Source: Acholoe squamosa (lineage: Eukaryota; Annelida; Polychaeta; Phyllodocida; Polynoidae). From it: a stretch of 64,000 nucleotides of DNA. Both the position numbers and the translations under genes were made by a program. Below the pieces are notes generated by a model. That model did not search any database. It had not been told where the DNA came from and worked only from the letters and a program-made list of their open reading frames with translations. Position 1 is the first letter of the stretch; the number at the start of each line of letters is the position of its first letter. Below, piece by piece: positions 184 through 62,000 of this stretch. The DNA lies in NCBI GenBank assembly GCA_949317995.1, contig OX439050.1, forward strand, positions 48,857,777-48,921,776. Reading direction: 5' to 3'.

Positions 184-6768
<6,585 letters not shown>

Positions 6769-7244
6769 GCTTAAAGTTGAGTCCTGAAAAAGAGCACTCG
6801 GATTAGTGGTGTCAGAAAGGAATTTATATGTAATTTATGTAATAACTTGCCTGCCATGAAAAGGATAGAGTATAATATGACTCAAAGCAATATTGGTAAC
6901 AAAACAGGGACATGGTAACTATTGTTGGTGAAAGCGGCATAGCTTCAACAGTCCTTAACCCCTTGACGATGGCCAGCATAATGCAAAAAAGGTTCCTTGG
7001 TCATTGGTTGTCAATAGCACCTTTACTTTATGACAAATATGCAGAATTATACCAAAGCCCCCGAAATTGATGAGTAGGAATATAGCAGAGATATTCTGTG
7101 CAATTATCTTAGACAAGCTTCGATTAAATCCCTGTATGGGCTGGTGAAGAGAAGCATAGCTAAGGATCTCTACTTATGGCAATGAATTCAGAATGCTCCC
7201 TTTTCAATACTTGTTTCGAGCTATGATACTAGTAAAGTTCTCAC

Positions 7245-11299: not shown

Positions 11300-12410
11300 G
11301 AATGTGCCAATACATGTGGCCAGGTGAGGGAAAACATGCCTCCTGGGGGACAATGGCTTTTAAAATGAGATATCCTCAGCTAAAATATCCCCGGTAGTTT
11401 TGCTGTAATTGCTTGTCAAACATAGGTTTGTGTGTACAACTGAAAATGGGAAATAAGCTCTAAATGCATTATATCCTATTATATAACATGGTTATCGAGT
11501 TTAGGCACTGATTTCAGTTCCTAAAATGGATAATATGAGTTCTGATATTTCGGGATAAGGAATCCAAAATTGACAGCGGACCGGACATACCTTGACAACG
11601 AGTTGACATGAAAGTAAATCCTCCATTTTTTAAGCTTATGTACGAAATGTGACGACATGCTTTGGACATAACATAGTTGAAACCATATTCTACCTGCCTG
11701 TCGACTAGATTCCTTGATATTATGGCTGTATTTGATATAAAAAAAAAAGATTAATCTTTCGAAGCGAGCGACTGGCCGTGCGTGTTCGCCATTCTGTCAA
11801 TAGAACCTGTGGCACCGCCTGGAGTGTACAGGCTATAGACTGGCGCAGAGCTCTCTGTCTCAACGGTAGTAGGCCTACGAGAATGAGAGTTGCAGGAGGT
11901 CGCCAGCTTAACCATACATTAACATGAAACCAAGATGGCGCAGGGCCATCTCGTCGACTTGCAAAAGAAAACAATGGATTCTATCAATTTTAAAGGTAAA
12001 AACTTAGAATTAATGGTGGAAACCATGTTATATATGCAATATGTAATGATCAGACCTTTTTAGCTCTGTTTTCGGTTCTGGGTTCCTGAAGGAATTTCAA
12101 AAAATATTTGTGGCAAAAATTTTCAATTAGAATAGGGGAGTGGTTTTCATGGCAACCAGAAATTGCCTTATCTACCAATTTTCTATGTTTCCATGGCAAC
12201 CAACATTCAAAAACATTTTCAGTAGAGATGGAACAATTTTAAGCATACCACTGGCTACCTTATCAAAAATTGGCCTAAAGCCTTTTTTAGTATATTTGCC
12301 AGTGTTTTACCCATATACTGCCCCCTGGTGGCAAAAACCAGTACTAAAAATCCCCCCGGAGGTGTGTTCTCCCCCGTTGGGCCACACATTTCTTCCAGTG
12401 TAGTTAGAAT
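11300..12410. mobile_element. Dispersed repeat R1, long copy
   Basis: Two blocks of this stretch reappear in reverse orientation at 24118-24754: the GCATGCCTCCTGGGG-type block near 11325-11365, and the block from the TTTCATGGCAACCAGAAATT start (12145) to the CCCGGAGG end (12362). A middle part (11570-12050) is similar to 45340-45910. The shared order of blocks and about 25% divergence by eye indicate an old interspersed family without visible coding capacity. Confidence 0.6.
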
Positions 12411-12589
12411 TTCCCACACAAGGAGGTAGGTCAGTAAAGACCTGCCTTTACATCCACCCCGCAACCACAGCCTTATGAATGTGCCTGAAGCACAGCGTTG
12501 ACAGCAGCGTTAGTTGCTTCAAGGCACATGATGGCGCACTGATGACCTGCTTCAGGCCAGTGATGGTGGATAGCCTTATTTTGAGTCCA

Positions 12590-12800
12590 ATTAGGTCATG
12601 ATGTCACAGGTAGTGATGGCGTCCGCCCATCGGCCACTGGTGTGTATTATAATGGATTTTAAAAGATTTCTGCTGAATTAGGAACCAATATAACATACAC
12701 CAAGCTCTAATAGAATGCCGGGACCCTAAGGATACTGTTCCTACGCTGTCCATCAGTGGCTGATGTCCATCGGTCTGCTGCTTATTTTGATTTTGGTTTA
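12590..12800. repeat. Dispersed repeat R2
   Basis: Similar over about 200 bp to 26270-26470 and, through the segmental duplication, to 37250-37450. Shared words in the same order include GATGGCG or GATGGAGGCCGCC, CCAAGCTMTAATAGAA, CCCTAAGGAT and TCCATCAGTGGCTGATG. No coding signal. Confidence 0.6.
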
Positions 12801-13273
12801 AAGCACCTGACACCATCATCACTGCTGTGCTTCAGGCATGTTACAAAGTGATCGTAAGGGACACCACCATGAAAAGATGCAATATGTCTGCTTGCAAGCC
12901 TATGTAGAATAGATCCTCGTAGTATCGAGAAATCAGCTAAAGTCTGAGAAATACATGCAAAGAATATCTTGGACTCATTTACTTTTCTCCCATCAAAATA
13001 TATTTAGAAGGCTGGCCATTTAGTGGGGAAATTTGCATACTTGAATGCCCTGATTCTTTGCCCTTGAATAATCATTGAGAGGAACTGTGTGTCAATTTTC
13101 ATAGCTAAGTGAATTTTACTTTTTATTCTGATTGCATATCAAGACTATACAGAGGCTGTTAAGGACTCTTATTCCACGATTTCTGGGATTCTCAGTGCTT
13201 TTCCTGGATATCGCCATGCACATACCTGTCGATATTGCACACCCTGTAGGCTGTAACATCAATTTTGTAAGGT
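12801..13273. other. Spacer without recognised feature
   Basis: AT-rich, no gene or repeat recognised. Confidence 0.45.
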
Positions 13274-13333
13274 GTGCAGTTATCCATGGATAACCTGCAT
13301 GCCGTGCAGTTATCCATGGATAACCCGCACGCC
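13274..13333. repeat. 2 x 30-bp tandem repeat with palindromic core
   Basis: Two adjacent units beginning GTGCAGTTATCCATGGATAA, differing at two positions near their ends. The core TTATCCATGGATAA is a perfect palindrome. Confidence 0.85.
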
Positions 13334-13533
13334 TCTCATGTCCTTACATGTCATATGTTACATGTTAAAACCTGGCATTGCGCCACAGGGACTGACGAGA
13401 GAAGCTTGGTTAGAACCATGTTTCTATGATATAAAGCCACCCAGCAGTAGTGTAGTGTGAACGCGTCCAGCACCTTGACCCATAACCAGGCCAGTCGCGC
13501 ACAGTATCTAACCAACGGCTGCCAGGCGCTGAA

Positions 13534-13883
13534 GGAGGAGACGCGGCGGTCTAGTGGTTAGCGCATTGCACTCAGCCGTCAGAGGTATGCGGGTCGAGTC
13601 CCGGTCCGGGCGCGTCTCTTTTTTCGCCGTGTGCGCTATATCTGTCCGCTGCCGGGCGACAAGGTGTATGTACCGATCGTGTACAAACACTATGCTGACA
13701 GCTTCTGGTGGCATTCTAACCTTATTCTAACCTTATTCTAACCAATAGACCATCAGTACACACACCTCGGCGCCCGGCAGTGGACAGCTATAGCGCACAC
13801 GGCGAAAAAAAGCCGAGATGGGCGCTGTCGCTGTCCGCTGCCAGGCACTGAGGTGTATGTACCGATCGTGTACACACAATGGC
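13534..13883. mobile_element. tRNA-derived SINE with inverted second copy
   Basis: 13534-13617 is tRNA-like: a perfect 7-bp acceptor pair GAGACGC/GCGTCTC, an A-box-like GGTCTAGTGGTTAGCGC and a B-box-like GGGTCGAGTCCC that lacks one T of the canonical box, so a working tRNA gene is unlikely. It is followed by TTTTTT and a body (about 13618-13671) that recurs inverted at about 13754-13809 and, in part, directly at 13835-13883. Together this suggests tRNA-headed SINE copies joined head to head. Confidence 0.6.
13713..13742. repeat. 10-11-bp tandem repeat (TTCTAACCTTA)
   Basis: Three consecutive TTCTAACC units lie in the loop between the inverted SINE arms. Confidence 0.75.
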
Positions 13884-14603: not shown

Positions 14604-21511
<6,908 letters not shown>

Positions 21512-26868: not shown

Positions 26869-32659
<5,791 letters not shown>

Positions 32660-33030
32660 ATTGAAAGTCGTGCCCTGAAATAAAATAAAATAATGAATAT
32701 TAATCTCACATTCTACCAGTTGTTACAAATCCTGTAGGGTACCTCTGCTTATTGTTCTAATTGGACCAGCCCTGAGACAATGATATGAACATAGAAAAGG
32801 TGGTGTAGTTATGTAAATGAAATAGTGGTGTGTAATAAATGATTTTTTCTCTTCAGCATGATGTTCAAACTATTCTACATTTAATAGAAGAATTCCAAGC
32901 TGCGGGGGTGTCGACCGCAACTATGGTTCTAGAATATCTATTTGACATTATAGCAAGGTAATACAAAGTGGGATAGATTTGGCAGTCCTTGATGCCTGGT
33001 CCTAAGCCTAACATGACCAATGATACCAAC

Positions 33031-37842: not shown

Positions 37843-43629
<5,787 letters not shown>

Positions 43630-44000
43630 ATTGAAAGTCGTGCCCTGAAATAAAATAAAATAATGAATATTAATCTCACATTCTACCAGTTGTTACAAAT
43701 CCTGTAGGGTACCTCTGCTTATTGTTCTAATTGGACCAGCCCTGAGACAATGATATGAACATAGAAAAGGTGGTGTAGTTATGTAAATGAAATAGTGGTG
43801 TGTAATAAATGATTTTTTCTCTTCAGCATGATGTTCAAACTATTCTACATTTAATAGAAGAATTCCAAGCTGGGGGGGTGTCGACCGCAACTATGGTTCT
43901 AGAATATCTATTTGACATTATAGCAAGGTAATACAAAGTGGGATAGATTTGGCAGTCCTTGATATCTGGTCCTGAGGCTAACATGACCAATAATACCAAC

Positions 44001-48790: not shown

Positions 48791-49696
48791 ATGGTCTAAA
48801 AGCTGCAGTTTATACATGGGGGTTTACAGCACTTGGAGTCTACTCATTTCTTTTTCAGTTATTCCAAGACCTTCCATGGTCAGTCATGTGATTTGTCCAA
48901 CCCCAATAAGATTCATCATTGAAAACTTTTCATCTGCGGGTTTTAGCTATCCTGAAAATGCACCAGATGGCACCAGATGGCTTCTGGATATTAAAAAATT
49001 TCCTGAGGGAATATACCCCCAGCCCCCCCTCCAATTCTTATTCTCTATTGCACAATAAAGAGAAGAATGGCCAGTGTAAAATTGCCAAGACACAGTCTAC
49101 TTTGGCCTGTGTTGAGAAAAAGATTTCGGCAGCACTGGATATGAATCAAATCTTTATTGGGGTTGCAGCCAAGGAGGACCAAGCCAAACCATCTCGGATC
49201 GCGCATGCGCAGTCAGTTCAGGAAAACTCGGCATCAACAACAGTCAGTTCTTACAGTTCACCACTGTTTAGCCTGGTAAGTACAGTTCTTCTTGTTATTT
49301 AGCATTCCCTGCTTCAGGGAACCATTATGAATGTATTCTGCAGCCTTGGTTCCCCCCGGAACCTTGGATGTTCAGCAGATTCTTAGTTATTTAGGACTCT
49401 GCACTGCCTCCCCTTGCGCCCAGATCGATGCCGGGAACTAGGTCACGGTGGCGTCCTTCTCCCTGGGCTGTCCTAGCTCTGGACTAACCTGCACCCCCTG
49501 GTGCCAAACTGTCCGGTTTTAGACATATTAGAGCCTTAATGATCGATTTGCTGCCCCCCGGTAGCTCACAGATCAGTCTAGGCCGAGTTATTCGCCCTGG
49601 TAGCATCTAAATCGCTCACATTTGCTCAGAAATCGCTCAGCTTGACCTCATCCCCCGACGACCAGAGCTGTAGTGACACCCCTTACGCACGACCGG

Positions 49697-50060
49697 GCCA
49701 GACCCTCGCCGCCGTGGCCGAGCGGGTTAAGGAGCTGGAATAGTTCCTCCAGTCGCCATCTTTTGGGGCTGGAGCCACTGTACATCAGGATGTCGTGGGT
49801 TCGAATCCTGCTAGCAGCGCAGTTATGCACGCTCGCCTCCCGGCTACGTACAGACGCGGGCAGGACCCTCGCCGCCGTGGCCGAGCGGGTTAAGGCGAAT
49901 AGTTGAATAGTTCCTCCAGTCGCCGTCTTTTTGGGGCTGGCGCCACTGTACATCAAGAGATCGTGGGTTTGAATCCTGCTAACGGCGCAGTTTTGCGCGC
50001 CCGCCTCCCGGCTACGTACGGACGCGTTCCGCAGTCAGAAGACGCAGGTTCGAATCCCAC
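49697..50060 (+). repeat. Tandem tRNA-like (Ser/Leu-type) repeats
   Basis: Two units with a 163-bp period. Each begins GCCGCCGTGGCCGAGCGGGT (49708 and 49871), an A-box match, and carries a B-box: GGTTCGAATCC at 49799-49809 and GGTTTGAATCC at about 49966-49976. A third B-box, GGTTCGAATCC, lies at 50047-50057 without a full head. Spacing between A and B boxes exceeds that of a normal tRNA-Ser, so these are tRNA-derived repeats, not standard tRNA genes. Confidence 0.7.
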
Positions 50061-50954
50061 CCTTGGCGTTCAATATTTAGCAGTTATTTTATGATCTTCT
50101 GGTATTGTACGTAGTAACTATTAGACAGGACTGTTCATCAATTTACTAATAGAGCCCTCTCTGCTTTTTTACAGAAAATGAGTGGAAGGAAAACCGGTAG
50201 ACGTGCTACCCGTAGCCATGCTATGAGTTACACGAGCTCCACCAATGGTGACGCCGCCACCCAGATGCCGGTGACGACGAACCCTAGCACTGACACCACT
50301 GACACCCAAGGTGTCAGGGCTGGGAGTACCACGGCGACACCAACGCCGTTCGACCTCTCGGCCATGCTTCAGGGCCCTAACTCGGGTATGTTCATGGGCC
50401 AGATGCAGATGATGCAGGGTCAGGCTCAGGCCACGACCCAGGAAGAGGAAGAGCCAGCTGAAGTTACGGAACCGGAACCAGCAGCCACTAAGGCGCTGCC
50501 AACAGGCAAGCTTCATGACTTAATGACGGAAAGGATTGTCAAGGAGAAGGAGAAGTCCAAGAAAGGGAAGGACCTCTCGCCACTAGTGAGTGACTTCCTC
50601 GGGTCGCTCTTCTCTGAGAAGAGGACACAGGCGGACCTCGACCTCGTCCACGGGTCGTATCCGTAGCCAGACAACGCGGCCAAGCTAGTAGCACCTGACC
50701 TGGAGCCTGCACTGCAGGCACTGCTGAACAGGCCGGGCAGCGCTGAATACCTCAAGAGGGACGAAGCGCTGAAGAAGCTCCAGATGCATCTGGTGAAAGC
50801 AATGTTAGCTTTCCAGCCAGTGATCGAACTGTGGCTCTCTCGAGGATCATCGGACTCTAAGTTGGATGACTGCAGAGAGTCATTCATAGATGGCATGCAG
50901 CTGATCGTCAGCACGATCAACGCTATCATGGCTCACCGAAAGGATCAACATTAA

Positions 50955-53900
50955 GTTGGTTATTTCTGTTGGTGGATATCTGAGCCTCTGGCTAGAATTT
51001 AGCCAGGGGCTCCTTTATTTTTTTTAATTTATAATTCTTTATTTTTTGTATATAAATTATTGTCTACTTGTATTTGTTTATGTAATGGCAACAACTACAC
51101 GATTAAACAATTTTCTAAATATGAAGGGCTTGAAAATGGTACATCTAAATACGCGAAGCATGTTTAACAAAAGACAGGAAATATTTGACCATTTAGATGG
51201 TGCTGATATAGTTGGAATGAGTGAAACTTGGTTACATGAAGACTATGATGATGACTTAATAAACTGGGAAGGCATGAATTGATTCAGGCTGGACTGAAAA
51301 AGAAAGAAAGGCGGAGGTTTAGCAGTTTACATTCGAGATGACATTAATCTTGATGTTAAGATACGCAATGACATTAGTTGTAGTAACAAGGATATTGAAT
51401 GTCTAGTATTAGATCTAGTCTTGAAGACACATACTTTACAATTGGTCACTCTATATAGACCTCCTTCTGGCAAGATAGATAAGTTTTTTCTACATTTGTC
51501 TCGTGTTATGGAAATTGCAGATAAAGAAGGGCTTGAACAATGGATTATGGGGGACATAAATATAAATACCTTGCGTGAAAAACTACCTAGTACTGTAAAG
51601 CTAATCGATGCTTGCCGATTTAACGGCTATCATAAACTCATTAATCAGTGCACTAGACCCTATAAGATTATTGTATCATGTTTAGATAATATATTGACTA
51701 ATTACAATGAGTCTATTACATCTGGTGTCTTGAATTTTTTAGTAAGTGATCATCTGCCTGTGTTTTCTGTAAAAACAAGAGAGAAGGTTGACTATATCAA
51801 AAAGAAAGTTTGGTTGAGAAAGTACAAAGGTTATGATGAAGAAACTCTCAAAGAGTGGCTAATAATGGCAGACTGGGATGTTTTTTATGAACTGCACGAC
51901 CCTGATGGTGCTTGGTGATTCATTGAAAACTTGATAATTGAATACTTAGATGAGTACTGTCCTTGGTCTGAAATTGAGATTGTGGACAGGAGAAATAAAT
52001 GGATGACACATGACATTTTGTCAATGATAAATGAGCATGAGGACAATGTGGAAATGTTTTCGAAAATTAAAGATGATTATTATCTCAATAAAGCCAGGCA
52101 GCTACGTTGTAGAATTAATAAGGCTATCAGGTACTCAAAGGCCAACCAGGTCAAGTCTGCACTGGAGGAGGCTAAGTCTGACCTAAAGCGATTCTGGAGA
52201 GTTTTAAATGGAGTTTTGAAACCAGAGGTGCAAATTGCCCCTCCAGAATTGATAGGTGATGATGGTTTTATCAAGTAGGAGCACGAATCTGTAAATTATT
52301 TAAATGATTATTTCTCAAATATTGGTGCTAAACTATCTTCAGTTTTCACAGATAATGGTTATCCTGAGCGTGTATTAATGACTGAACCTGTTGATCCAGC
52401 TGAAATTCCTGTGCGAGTTGAAAAGGGCTTTGTTGAGATGCTCATAAAAGAAATAAATGTTAACAAAACTTCCGGAATTGATGTGATATTTTGAAAACAG
52501 CACTGTTATTTTTGTTAGATCCTGTTACTAGGTTGTACGAACTGAGCTTAACCAGTTGCATATTTCCTGAAAAATGGAAAAGGGCAAGGGTGAATCCAAT
52601 ACCCAAGCCCGGTAATATAAAGTTAATCACCAATTGGCGGCCGATATCACTATTACCTGTACCTTCCAAAATTGTGGAAAAAATAATGTATTGCCATCTA
52701 AATGAAATTCTAAATAAGAAAAATGTTATTTCTGCAAAACAATTTGGTTATCGATCAGGACTGGGGACTGCAGATGCAGTCTTCAGACTCCTGAGTGATA
52801 TCTATGAAAATAGAGATAGAGGCCATTTGACTGGAGTTTGTTATCTTGACCTACGTAAGGCGTTCGATTGTGTTAATCACGCCTATCTTGTTGAAATTTT
52901 AGGACAACTTGGTTTACATGACACAACACTCAATTGGCTAATGAGTTACTTAACTGGGAGAAGCCAGTATACTAAAATTGGTTCCTTTGTTTCTAATGAA
53001 GCCCCAGTACAATTTGGTGTCCCGCAAGGGTCTGTATTGGGACCGCTCTTGTTCATACTATATATAAATGATGTCAGTGATGTTCTTGCTGATTGTAAAA
53101 ATTATCTTTATGCAGACGACTTGGTAATATACAGCTCAAACAACAAAATTGAAACTATAACCAATAGGTTACAAACAGCATTAAATCGATTACAATCCTG
53201 GTTTGTAACCAAGAGGCTTACTGCTAACAAGGATAAATCCAAAGTTGTGTGGTATGGTTCATGCAAAAAGTTACCAAAGTCCAGGGGCCAAAAACTATAT
53301 TTGTATAACAAAGAACTTGAAACCCTGAATAACTACTGCTACTTAGGACTAAAGTTAGACAGTTTTTAACCTGCACTAAAGGATTTAAATAGTAAAATTA
53401 ACCACCGTCTTTTTAGATTCAGTAAATTCAGAAACATGTTATCTGAAAAAGTTGCTGTAACAGTCTATAAAACCACCATAATGTCTGTTTTTGATTACGC
53501 TTGTTTTGCCTACGAGGGGGCTAATGAAGGTCTGTTAAAAAAATTGGACAGAATGCAGAAGAGAGGCCTTAAAATTTGTTTCAGAGGTTTGGATCTTAAT
53601 GAAGAAGAGCTCCATGAACGGGCTAATATTCCACTCCTGATGAGGAGACGACAAGAATTATTGCTTAGCTTCATGTACAAATTATCAAGAAATCCAGATT
53701 GGGTCGATGAGGAAATCAGAAGGCCAGGTATGAGGTCCGAATCAAAGATCAAGATAGTCATTCCGAGAGCACGTAACATGGGATTCAACAACTTGCCGCT
53801 ATATAGAGGAGTTGAGTTATGGAACAATCTCCGAGCTGATGTCCAACACAGTGAAAGTAAACTTAAATTTAAAGCGAGAATTAGGCAGATACAAGACTTG

Positions 53901-54527
53901 TCCAAGATGATGTTAATGGGTGATGAGCTGAATGAGCTGGATGAGTAATATGAAAATAGATACAGGTTAGGGAGCTGTTGAAAGACTACACCTTATCCTG
54001 ATTGAGTAGAGGGAGCTGTTGTTTGCTGACTACACCCTCTACTAGAATGTATTCATGTGGAGCTGTTGAAAGACTACACTGCATGAATTTCATCCATGAG
54101 CTCACAGTGACTATACTCTCATACTGTATATCTGCTGATCATCTGTTTAAGATATGTTTTGTACCTACTGATCTGTCCATATATATCCTATTAGTATAGT
54201 GTAATACATGCTAGTATAAAACTTGTCGATAGTAACAAACTGGTGTACCATGCCTGCTTCCCCCTCTTTTTGAAATTTTATTGTAAGATTATAGAGGTTG
54301 CTATTTGTGTACATAATATATACTGTTTGATATATAGATTTTATTTTTTCTGTTTATATTATTGTTCTCATCCTTCATTGTATAAATTCCCATCTTTATT
54401 CATTGAACTATGTGCAAACAACCACTTAATGTAATAACTGAACGAGGATTCACATTATTGTCTAATTTTACCACTTTCTGTATGAATAGTGACTTGACAA
54501 TAAAACTTTTTCAAACCTCAAAAAAAA
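50955..54527 (+). mobile_element. Non-LTR retrotransposon (LINE), jockey superfamily, CR1/L2-like
   Basis: Endonuclease domain from about 51085 (VHLNTRSMFNK, MSETWLH, LYRPPSG, MGDININ, VSDHLPVF) and reverse transcriptase 52491-53369 (NWRPISLLP, LDLRKAFDCVNH, FGVPQGSVLGPLLFILYIND, catalytic YADD at 53109-53120), then a C-terminal region to 53948. It ends with a 3' UTR, AATAAA (54499-54504) and A8 (54520-54527). Inactive: in-frame stops at 51280 (TGA), near 51295 (TGA), 51916 (TGA), 52276 (TAG) and 53367 (TAA), and a frameshift near 52490. No separate ORF1 is seen, so the copy may be 5' truncated. It sits inside the gag-like region of the DIRS-like fossil, so it is younger than that element. 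The exact 5' edge is uncertain. Confidence 0.88.
53973..54085 (+). repeat. Repeated motif in LINE 3' UTR
   Basis: GAGCTGTTGAAAGACTACA occurs near 53970 and 54060, with an imperfect copy between them. Short 3' UTR repeats of this type are known in several LINE families. Confidence 0.6.
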
Positions 54528-56968: not shown

Positions 56969-58980
56969 TCAAAACAAATAACTATAAACACAAAACAGAA
57001 ACAGTCTAAATCTAGACCACCCCACTCCCACCCATGTTGACAATGAATAATCATTCACTTAGTCCCCAGATATCAGAACTTATAACTTAGCACTGATAAC
57101 ATTCTGAATCCCCTAAATTTCCATAGGCTTTACTCATAGTTCAAATATACTACTTTCTTGGGGTATTGCCACTTAAGCTTGGAATTAGCAGTAGGGCATG
57201 GTCAGACATAATCAGTAATAACAATATATTACTGTAGAAATACCTATCAACTGGGATTTGAAGTTCAAATTAATCTAGAACTTTGTGACCACCTACCAAA
57301 ACATCTGTCCTCCTTGGCTGTCTCTGCTTGTCTGTTTTTAACTCAGGAGGAGAACAAAGAAAAGGGAGGGAAATTTAAAATGGACCAATCAGAACACAGA
57401 ATACTATGTAGTGTGTCACCTTACATGAAGTTGTGTCATGATGACTGAGAGTTTACAGAAGTTGACACAGGTTGACGTATACTCACAGAGTCTGTTATAC
57501 CTATATTGGATACAAGATCTACCCCTTTTATCACTCAATACAGACCATTTTTACCATCATATTAATAAGTCCTATCTATTTCCCCTCATCATATGTGACA
57601 TGTACTGGGAGAAGGGGTCTTAAAACCCCTGCCCCTTTTTGCAGATCATGTCACATATGTGACCTAGCTGATCACTAGACATTAAACTTTTTATATTCTG
57701 CTAAACCAGGCCCAACAGATGCATAGATTACATATAAGGGGGGATTCAACTTATGATGTATTTGGCCCTTTTTGGCTTCTGGGAGCTACAGCAAAATATT
57801 CAAAGCCCCATTCTTCTTTATTCTAAACATATTTGATAGAAAACATATAGGGGCTTAAAAAAAGGGCAAATTTGCGTATGTCGGCCTATTATTTTGAGAG
57901 ATATAGGCCTTCGAAGGTGAAAATTCACCAAAAAATGCCATTTTTTCACCTTTTCCTCTATGTTCAAGGTCATGTATTATATGATAAATCATTTCTAGGA
58001 CATCCTGATTTATTTTTTCCATGAGGGGACACTGTTTTGTCATCAATAACCAATAATTATAATGAACGGGTATAACAGGGTACACTTATGTGGGTATTTA
58101 TTATATGCTGTATTATGTATGTATTTATTGTATGCTATACGAGAGAGTGCTATAGGAGTCCTGTGTAGGGTTTATGGTAGCTAGAGTTTATGGTAGCTGT
58201 GGAATGCTGCAGACGGAGATGGAGTCGACGAGATCTGGTCAGGTAGATTCTGTAAGGAGAAAGAATACGTGTGAGCCAAAGTACATGGCGTCTGGGAGGT
58301 GTAGTGGATTGGTGAGAGATAGGTGAGGAGTTAGTATTGTGGGAGCAGTTGAAGAAGCAACACATACTCCTGGAGTAGACGAGAATGAAGCTGTTTAGTA
58401 TCTAGTATTACACTTAGCCAATGTAAGAACGGATTAAGCAGGATCTCTATGGCACCTATACCTCTCTAGAAGCACTGGATTGTTAGAACATGAACTGCTT
58501 GTGTGAATAGACTGATGTCGTTGAAGCTGTACAAACCTGAGTGGAATTACCAAACAACTGTAACTGTGAATAACGAGTGAACAATAAATGGTGACTTGTA
58601 TCAGCGTCTTGGTGTTGGTTAAAAGAATGGGCTAGGCCAACATCATACCACTAGAGTTAGTCTTCCCAATACGTGAGATCAGTGGAGCGAGCTGATAATA
58701 ACTACACAAGTGAGACCACATTAATATACATATAAACACAACCCACACAGCCCAACACTCCTAGCTAATATTTCAATATCGTTCGGAGTTGATTGATCTC
58801 GTAAATTTTCCGCGGGAAGGCCTACTATGAAAAATGACAGGTTTTCTAACCACCAGGCATATAACAAAAGTAGATTAGCTAGCCTGCTAAAATACTAGCT
58901 TTATTCTTATAAATAGCCACCATGAAAGGGGTCCTTATAGGGGTCTATTGGGCAGAAAAAAAATTGGCACTACCTTGGAA
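56969..58980. other. Spacer without recognised gene
   Basis: No coding signal. The part 58090-58750 has a less AT-rich composition with an AATAAA near 58582, but I could not prove an element there. Confidence 0.35.
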
Positions 58981-59025
58981 CCCAACATCACCACAGCCAT
59001 CAACGTAATTTTCAATTTCGAGAGT

Positions 59026-61046
59026 GTGACCAACGCTGAACGGTCATTTTCCTCAATTAATCAACAAATACTGGTCATTTCTATAATTTTTCTACCCAAG
59101 CTATGTCAAAATATGTAGTTTCTCACCACAGAAGCAAAAAAACGAAGAAAGGTTTCACAGGCTGGCCATAAGGGGAGGTTCTTCGTATGTTTCAGCGTTG
59201 GTCACACTTTCGTGCTGAAATCAGCATGGGAAAGAAAAACGACTTCCTGTTAACCGGCGGAAATGACCTAGATCCAGGTGTCTTTGTAAACAACTCAGAG
59301 GAACCCAAGCTGTGAAACCAGAGCAGTTTTTTGCAATTTTTCCTCAACTTTCGGGTCAAAAATCAACACAAAGGTAAGGAAATTTGATGAAATTTTCATG
59401 AAATGTTGTTGTGGAAGTGTGCAGGGATATGTAGATTGCTTTTTGTGTACTGCAATGATGTAATTTGGATGCTAGGGGGTAAAAACGATCTGGGAATGAA
59501 GTTTCCTAACCGCTACGGCCATTGGCTTGCTCGGGATGAGCGACTAGGCTTGGTCCGGTCCCTCTCCCCGGTAGTTTCAGCGTTGGTCACACTTTGCTCG
59601 CATGGCCGAGAATGGTCGAAATAGGTGGAATTTGGTGGGATTTTGCTGTAATTAAATACTGTATCTGTAGATTAGGGTCTGTACTACATCTTTGAATGGT
59701 TTAGCACCCTTTTCCTCCATTTTGAGACAACCCCCGGGCACTTACGAAGCCAGGGTGGCGAAAATCAGCTGAAAAATACATGTTCTTAGGCCCAACACTT
59801 GCTTATTTTACAAATTTTCATGGTTTTTGCATGTTAAAAATCCTGAACAGGCCTCCCTCCATTGTTTTATTTTATTTTGCTCATGTTTGAATGGTCAGCT
59901 TTCCCTCAGTGCAAGCCTATAGGTATTTAACCCGAAAATGTGACCAACGCTGAAGCCGAGTCAAGTTCGGCCCCACGTTCGCCCATACATATACACCGGA
60001 GTAAATTCTAGTCATCATTACTTAGATAGGACTAGTATCTAACCTCGTGGCCACATATATTCACTATTTGACATTTCCCCTCTTCTTTATGGCACATTTT
60101 TGAAAGTGTGACCAACGCTGAATCGATAAATTTTGGGCTATAAGGTATGTACGGTACACTTCCACTGCACATATGTCATTTATATTTAGCCATAAGATGG
60201 CCCTAAGGTTCCTCTAACTTATAGAAGTACCAACAAGTACATCCTGAATACTTCCTAAAAAAAAAAAATTCTGGTGGTTATATTTTTGGTTTTCACAAGG
60301 TGTTTGGTAAGTATTTTTCCGTGTCATGTCTGTATGCGCTCATTTTTTTCTTATACCTATAGGACATCACTAACATCATATAAATGCCCCATAATGTGTG
60401 TTTCCTGCAATTTGTCACTCATTATTTACATTTTTCACCTGGTACCAAAATTCTCAAAATCTATTAAAAATACCAATTTTATATTTGTAGACTAACCTCG
60501 GACATTGTATAACATTATATAGACATCGTATATATTTGGAATTATTTTCTGAGGGTTTTTATGTGTTTCTGGCTATATTTTAATCACTATTGGAATGTAA
60601 CAGGGATGTAATCTAATAAGTTATATTGAGTGTATGGTGGAGTAATCAATATGGTGTCACCACTTCAGCGTTGGTCACGTTTTCGGGAGTTTGCGAGGGT
60701 TCGGTGAAGGCCAAGATAAGTTCCTTGAGTTACTCATAGATGGCCAAGGGTCCTTTTCCTGTATAATAGACCTTCTTAAGATAAAGCAGAGTAATTTTCA
60801 AGAGAATATGATGAGTTTTGGTGAACTGAGGGTAAAGTTAAAATTGTGGATCGATTTTCACCAAATTTTACACCTCGCGCTATATTACACAAGACCCATA
60901 AATCCAAAAGTTTAGATCCCCGGTTTTTGATTTTTGGTCAACTTAAACTACTATATTGTAGTATTATTGAAACAGCATTTGGTGACAATCCAAGCATTAC
61001 TCAGTGTGGTATTGATGTTATATCTAAAAACGTGACCAACGCTGAA
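59026..61046. repeat. Seven-copy 15-bp motif cluster, both strands
   Basis: TTCAGCGTTGGTCAC occurs exactly at 59191-59205, 59576-59590 and 60664-60678 on the plus strand, and at 59026-59040, 59940-59954, 60108-60122 and 61032-61046 on the minus strand. Bases after it are partly conserved (RYTTTCG). The sequence between copies is unrelated as far as I can see. No gene is recognisable in the interval. Function unknown: either protein-binding sites or internal motifs of an uncharacterised non-autonomous element. Confidence 0.92.
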
Positions 61047-61476
61047 CGATATTCTAAGGGTTTTACGCCATGGGCTATAAAAACTGAACCCCTGGAAGTT
61101 AAATCCTTGAACGGACCTTTCTGATATGCCAAGATATAGGGCTTTCAATAAAATAAAGTGTTATTAAGTAATACTGAGTTTGTAAATCTATCAGTCCTGA
61201 GCCAGATATGCATAGAAAGTTGAATCCCCCCATAAAATGCAGATAAGTCCAACTTAGTTGTAAGTCCCATAGACAAAACAAATAATCCTTTTTGTCTTAT
61301 ATATGCACCCAATTCCATATTCTTTGGTATCATTACATTCCTGATTTATGTATATTTCATATCATGTAAGAAAGAAAACTGCTATATGTAACATAATCTA
61401 TCGTATTAACATTCAATCAATTGGCCCATTCTGTAAAGTACAAGCAGTTAGAATTTATACAGATTCCATAGTCTCT
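61047..61476. other. Spacer without recognised feature
   Basis: No gene or repeat recognised. Confidence 0.4.
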
Positions 61477-62000
61477 CATTGTGAATATGAGTCATGCCGA
61501 GTGAGAGCTAGCAATTATTGACCCATGCTGACAATTGTTCACCAAGTTGTCCCTCACATCTTTATGGAAGTGAGTGAATGTTCGTAAAGCTGTGTGCAAC
61601 TGGGCTACTATTGACACACATTGGCATATGCTACCCAATCTTCCCTAACATCTTCATTGAAGTGAGTGATTGTTCGTCAAGCTGAGTGAGAGTTGACAAC
61701 TGTAGACACATGCTGACACACGCTCACCCAGTCTTCCCTACCATCTTTATCACAGTGAGGGATTGTTTGTTAAACTGAGTGAAAGTTGACAAGTATCGAC
61801 ACCAGCTGACACATGCTCATGCAGTCTCCCCTACCATCTGTATCAAAGTGAGTGCTTGTTTGTCAAGCTGAGTGACACTTGTCCAGTATTGACACATGCT
61901 AACGAACATTCACCCAACCTTTCCTACAACCTTTATTGAAGAGAGTGATGGTTTGTCAAGCTGAGTGAGAGTTGACTCAGTATGACACAAGATGACACAG
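61477..62000. repeat. 93-bp minisatellite, about 5.5 degenerate units
   Basis: Units start near 61477, 61570, 61662, 61755, 61848 and 61941 (period 92-93). Shared words are GTGAGTGATTGTTCGTCAAG, GCTGAGTGAGAGTTGAC, GACACATGCT and CTTCCCTACCATCTT. Units differ by roughly 15-25%. A CCCAGCAAATCT-type terminus (complement at 62058-62069) follows at the right, so the array may be internal to an element. Confidence 0.88.

Follow-up and report, generated by a model that had tools for sequence, protein, structure and literature searches.

What keeps a 15-bp word identical, letter for letter, at seven places within 2 kb of DNA that is otherwise dissimilar? In the 64-kb stretch analysed here as a whole (the window), TTCAGCGTTGGTCAC is present in seven exact copies at 59026-61046, each followed by a less strictly kept tail (Table 1). 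As judged from the letters of this stretch, the interval could be a regulatory or boundary element, built as an array of candidate sites for a single protein that recognises a long motif. We give this reading about an even chance, and weigh it below against two forms of mobile DNA, a decayed satellite and an RNA-based explanation.

Results

Seven exact copies

Searching both strands of the 64 kb bore out the original prediction of seven exact 15-bp copies within 2 kb, three of them on the plus and four on the minus strand; its statement that chance cannot give this was upheld. A first-order Markov model of both strands predicts 4.1e-5 exact 15-mer copies per 64-kb window, and none of 100 dinucleotide shuffles reached seven matches at up to three mismatches. 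No further copy of TTCAGCGTTGGTCAC with three or fewer mismatches lies elsewhere in the 64 kb, and the motif was not found inside any other repeat within the window. A gapped search of the 64 kb returned one extra weak match to the 22-mer (the 15-mer with its tail) and four to the 15-mer, compared with 0-4 and 2-8, respectively, in 20 Markov-simulated sequences. The seven copies in 2.0 kb correspond to what defines a homotypic cluster, namely several copies of a motif in a short non-coding stretch above chance.

The 22-mer and a 20-mer had no match in IMG/VR, nor had the 22-mer in GTDB; as these are viral and prokaryotic collections, their empty result says little about animal DNA. In PMC text, four 15-mers and two 14-mers of the motif are absent, and two 11-mers occur in 18 papers that look unrelated by title. 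The 15-mer matches no sequencing adapter that we know of.

Table 1. Positions of the seven sites and of the annotated features in the 64-kb window, counted from its first letter
Feature	Position	15-mer	Strand	Remarks
GH9 copy 1	474-6789		-	mainly nucleotide similarity; Pfam match below cut-off
GH9 copy 2	15021-19876		-	Pfam and nucleotide similarity
GH9 copy 3	27340-32680		-	Pfam and nucleotide similarity
GH9 copy 4	38314-43650		-	Pfam and nucleotide similarity
LINE	51298-53948		+	reverse transcriptase E 1.5e-36; endonuclease-like frame with a weak match below the cut-off (E 0.018)
Interval with sites	58781-61060			raised CpG; longest stop-free frame 99 aa
Site 1	59019-59040	59026-59040	-	tail ACTCTCG; lattice index 0
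Site 2	59191-59212	59191-59205	+	tail ACTTTCG; lattice index 1
Site 3	59576-59597	59576-59590	+	tail ACTTTGC; lattice index 3
Site 4	59933-59954	59940-59954	-	tail ATTTTCG; lattice index 5
Site 5	60101-60122	60108-60122	-	tail ACTTTCA; lattice index 6
Site 6	60664-60685	60664-60678	+	tail GTTTTCG; lattice index 9
Site 7	61025-61046	61032-61046	-	tail GTTTTTA; lattice index 11

A fixed core and a looser tail

The real unit is about 22 bp long and consists of 15 fixed positions and a looser tail. The partly conserved RYTTTCG extension that had been noted earlier is indeed there: across the seven sites, columns 16-22 read A5/G2, C4/T3, T7, T6/C1, T7, C5/G1/T1 and G4/A2/C1, that is, two purine and pyrimidine columns and then mostly TTTCG. 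Departures from ACTTTCG, tallied by eye, affect 11 of the 49 tail cells, whereas none of the 105 core cells departs (Fisher p 1.5e-6). Transitions account for nine of these 11 changes, compared with the one third that unconstrained letters would give (P 0.0014). On the outer edge, before TTCAG, conservation ends at once, and the extension is one-sided only. The CpG within the core is intact in all seven sites, and CpG elsewhere stands at about 0.35 of expectation. The gap in constraint between core and tail, together with the excess of transitions, makes the fixed part unlike what is left when a whole 22-bp unit has been copied recently and has then drifted.

Spacing of the sites

The centre-to-centre spacings of 165, 385, 364, 168, 556 and 368 bp were reproduced exactly as first given. 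In a period scan they approximate 1, 2, 2, 1, 3 and 2 times 182.75 bp, with R 0.971 and residuals of -12 to +8 bp. This lattice of about 183 bp is new and was missed by the original prediction, which had pointed to recurring intervals near 166 and near 370; the spacings behind that remark stand, and whole multiples of one period describe them better. The near-equal intervals (165/168 and 364/368) are by themselves weak, the closest difference having P 0.11 and the third smallest P 0.03. With both end sites held fixed, random placement yielded lattice P values of 0.0027 (20,000 uniform placements) and 0.0033 (3,000 placements, minimum spacing 100) for periods of 100-400 bp, and of 0.01 (uniform) and 0.008 (minimum spacing 100), from 3,000 placements each, for periods of 30-1000 bp; as the lattice was first seen while seven periods were being tried, all these values are post hoc, and seven points are few.

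With 182.75 bp, the period corresponds in length to a nucleosome repeat. The five lattice positions that are unoccupied within the array carry no degenerate site beyond background, the best match there being 9/15. GC content folded at 182.75 bp is without signal, since 52% of background windows reach the same value, and no helical phasing of the sites was detected at 9.5-11 bp (P 0.80 and 0.97).

The DNA between and around the sites

As had been claimed, the DNA between the sites shows no similarity: comparing the six intervals all against all gave a best E of 0.27, and comparing 58.5-61.5 kb with the whole window returned only the sites at E 0.01. Within the window the intervening DNA is thus non-repeat and dissimilar, as in a homotypic cluster. 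Promoters of the snRNA type were considered and rejected, as no TATA-like box was seen by eye at a fixed distance in the flanks and Rfam was empty at gathering scores.

A second new observation is that the interval keeps more CpG and less TpG/CpA than most of the window. Its CpG observed/expected ratio (o/e) is 0.66, compared with 0.354 in the rest and 0.37 in the whole window. Cutting the sites out leaves 0.595, a value as high as in 9.9% of windows; setting them to N leaves 0.569, reached by 8.6% of 2280-bp windows, and TpG/CpA is then as low in 2.4% of them. The two properties coincide in 2.7% of windows starting before 56.5 kb; those listed begin at about 47.9-49.8 kb, in front of the LINE and at it. 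The retention of CpG is not unique to the sites, as it recurs in windows that start at about 11.4-13.7 kb, at 44.4 kb and at 47.8-50.6 kb. Weak germline methylation would produce such a pattern of CpG and TpG/CpA. Windows starting at 11401-13700, between GH9 copies 1 and 2, are richer in CpG than the interval, with an o/e of up to 0.76, but have high TpG/CpA.

Genes and repeats in the window

Altogether, 538 stop-free frames of at least 45 aa are found in the window, 112 different ones of which were scanned against Pfam (10 + 45 + 57); 67 of the 76 long frames were included (10 + 57), with nine left out. The genes recognised are four tandem multi-exon copies of an animal-type GH9 endoglucanase. 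Taken with the LINE and the CpG depletion, they mark the window as probably animal-type DNA. A Pfam GH9 match at E <=0.01 was obtained for 13 of the 57 frames; when ten members of the same 57-frame set were scanned singly, six matched the family and five passed the Pfam cut-off. Copy 1 is recognised mainly by nucleotide similarity to the other copies and by a match below the cut-off (E 1.6e-4), and one GH9 frame matches solved endoglucanases at 3e-22. A direct segmental duplication (25768-33976/36738-44947), 97.4% identical and 11 kb apart, carries the last two copies, and six 85-bp tandem units with 99% matches lie inside the first copy at 1781-2292.

The sites lie rightward of both the LINE and the GH9 copies, at a distance of about 15 kb from the last of these copies; because the GH9 genes are on the minus strand, this is their 5' side. 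In the LINE, the endonuclease-like and reverse transcriptase domains occupy separate reading frames, and the frame at 50118-50666, which has no Pfam match, may be its first ORF. Just before the LINE, at 49694-50026, are two 168-bp tandem units with the tRNA-like stretches GTGGCCGAGCGGGTTAAGG and GTGGGTTCGAATCC, which we take to be A- and B-box-like. ARAGORN called no tRNA at 49694-50026, and the units are possibly SINE-like or part of a Pol III promoter. On the right, site 7 is followed after about 450 bp by a 93-bp minisatellite of 5.5 units with 74% matches (61491-61999).

Discussion

Based on our data we propose that a single protein with a long site offers the best account of the seven copies. 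We favour it on account of the strict core and loose tail, the free orientation, the unrelated intervals, the retained CpG and the spacing in whole multiples. The suggestion that a sequence-specific protein holds the sites, one of two explanations put forward initially, is therefore favoured, though by this indirect route. Several of our observations count against such an array: the empty lattice points have no degenerate sites, there is no GC signal, and the CpG retention is shared with other parts of the window. In addition, known site clusters usually tolerate degenerate sites and their sites normally vary, whereas there is no such variation here.

The second initial explanation, that this is the inside of a non-autonomous element, in its simplest form makes the sites terminal inverted repeats that bound small DNA transposons of the non-autonomous kind, and we consider it unlikely. 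The convergent sites would bound one unit of 379 bp (59576-59954), nested in another at 59191-60122, and one of 383 bp (60664-61046), with a lone end at 59026. The sites are indeed sharp outside and taper inside, as at transposon ends, and the arms of the three convergent units, 20-21 bp long and 95-100% complementary, are what terminal inverted repeats would look like. Moreover, a G at column 16 is found only in the pair 60664/61032, although chance alone would place it in a convergent pair of neighbours in 2 of 21 pairings. However, none of the 12 plus/minus combinations, seven of them convergent, has a target duplication, whether exact over at least 4 bp or over at least 6 bp with one mismatch, at offsets of -6 to +6, and at the exact site edges their flanks do not match over even 2 bp. 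That target duplications were lost at ends this perfect is hard to accept. The presumed transposon intervals share no interior within the window, no single or decayed ends occur elsewhere in the 64 kb beyond shuffle level, and a paired unit with a gap of about 350 bp had no match in IMG/VR or in GTDB contigs, which are not animal collections. An inverted repeat of 17 nt at 58775/61037 is by our estimate about at chance level, and no target duplication was seen there by eye. Since target duplications are missing and the interiors are unrelated, the simple transposon form is not supported; it also leaves the lattice unexplained.

Less probable still is that the interval lies within a larger element, mobile or viral, whose ends fall outside it, so that the sites would be internal binding repeats of the subterminal or replication type. 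Several copies in both orientations within otherwise unrelated DNA are in keeping with such an element, and plant transposons are known to carry such subterminal sites for their transposase. Spacings of 165-556 bp are nevertheless wide for subterminal sites, and the other inverted repeats in 58.0-62.1 kb look, in our judgement, like chance. Nor does the coding content speak for such an element, as the longest stop-free frame over the cluster has 99 aa, and the 45 ORFs of at least 50 aa beyond 54.9 kb gave no convincing Pfam match (two at E ~0.04).

The lattice could also be the remnant of a decayed satellite array of about 183 bp, in which only a protein box resembling the CENP-B box was kept by selection; this we find quite improbable. 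The sites fit the 182.75-bp lattice, and the core presumably has CGTTGG in common with the CENP-B box. Yet the mixed orientation of the sites is not that of head-to-tail monomers, the intervals have no residual similarity, and identity at lags of 178-190 bp is near background except at lag 186, where 0.294 is the third highest of 320 lags (mean 0.267, sd 0.011). We give the least credence of all to inverted sites that act as RNA through hairpins between opposite copies of a transcript: the two stretches that were folded are more stable than shuffles (z -5.35 for 59010-59220, z -3.69 for 60660-61050), but any inverted 20-bp copies would fold like that, the 15-mer never changes although pairing alone would allow compensated changes, which argues against RNA as the cause, and an Rfam search of the window was empty at gathering scores, with three permissive matches in 58700-61400 far below the cut-offs.

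Returning to the array of protein sites, the sites themselves, their two-tier conservation, their fit to the lattice and the retained CpG are what we observe, and from these we infer a protein, nucleosomes, an unmethylated state and an output that could be linked as follows. One protein, probably of the multi-zinc-finger type, would dock at all seven sites through an asymmetric recognition of about 22 bp, most simply with several zinc fingers, and would tolerate no change in the 15-bp core and some in the 7-bp tail. The sites would function in both orientations. As they lie at multiples of about 183 bp, successive bound proteins could sit in the linkers of one phased nucleosome array, with one site per linker, and the bound array might hold some 2 kb open and unmethylated. 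Its likely effect on nearby genes, conceivably those of the GH9 array on its left or one outside the window, would be that of a boundary, an enhancer or a locus-control region. A more specific version, which we regard as doubtful, is that an undescribed long-motif architectural protein of an invertebrate uses sites that face either way and are spaced by whole multiples of the nucleosome repeat, so that the DNA would encode one regulatory domain or boundary as a ruler of about 183 bp with 7 of 12 marks filled.

Clusters of sites are familiar, and seven copies identical at 15/15 positions in a nucleosome-like register, with near-copies absent from the 64 kb, would be unusual. If this held true genome-wide, it would mean that an animal lineage has a hitherto unknown chromatin protein with a long motif, and whether the spacing of sites encodes the nucleosome register would become a directly testable question.

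Clusters of CTCF-type sites, of which the H19 imprinting control region is an example, offer the closest comparison, although we take the sequence of the 15-mer to differ from the CTCF motif. As in the CTCF clusters described as 2xCTSes, several copies of a long asymmetric site occur together, the CTCF core motif being 20 bp there; unlike 2xCTS motifs, which share one ChIP-seq peak, the sites here are much farther apart, exact at 15/15 and mixed in orientation (PMC4562119). Human CTCF is reported to occupy a linker, the nucleosomes on either side having a mean spacing of 185 bp, compared with 182.75 bp here, and conservation in the surrounding 2 kb is described as limited to the site itself (PMC2453330). 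The lattice of the sites is indirect support for a possible nucleosome phasing of the CTCF type, of which the folded GC content shows nothing.

Drosophila Motif 1, given as G[A/C]TACGGTCACACTG, is linked through its zinc-finger protein M1BP to insulators and TAD borders (PMC8263732). Measured against that consensus, the full motif is not found in our sites and only GGTCACACT is present, in four of the seven (59026, 59191, 59576 and 60108). The other three break the common 9-mer, nothing in the motif as quoted there corresponds to TTCAGCGTT on the left side of the fixed core, and neither a promoter nor the start of a gene was identified. Chance may suffice for a 9-bp match with one known motif or another.

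Like MITEs, the locus has 20-bp inverted pairs that bound units of 379 and 383 bp, and unlike MITEs it lacks both the target duplications and, within the window, a common interior. The pairing centres of C. elegans, which are clusters of one short motif bound by the zinc-finger proteins HIM-8/ZIM, presumably have a TTGGTCA-like part in common with our sites and differ from them in the length and sequence of the core; the strong CpG depletion of the window is, we assume, also unlike a nematode genome. Both CTCF clusters and C. elegans pairing centres are analogues of this array, not its relatives.
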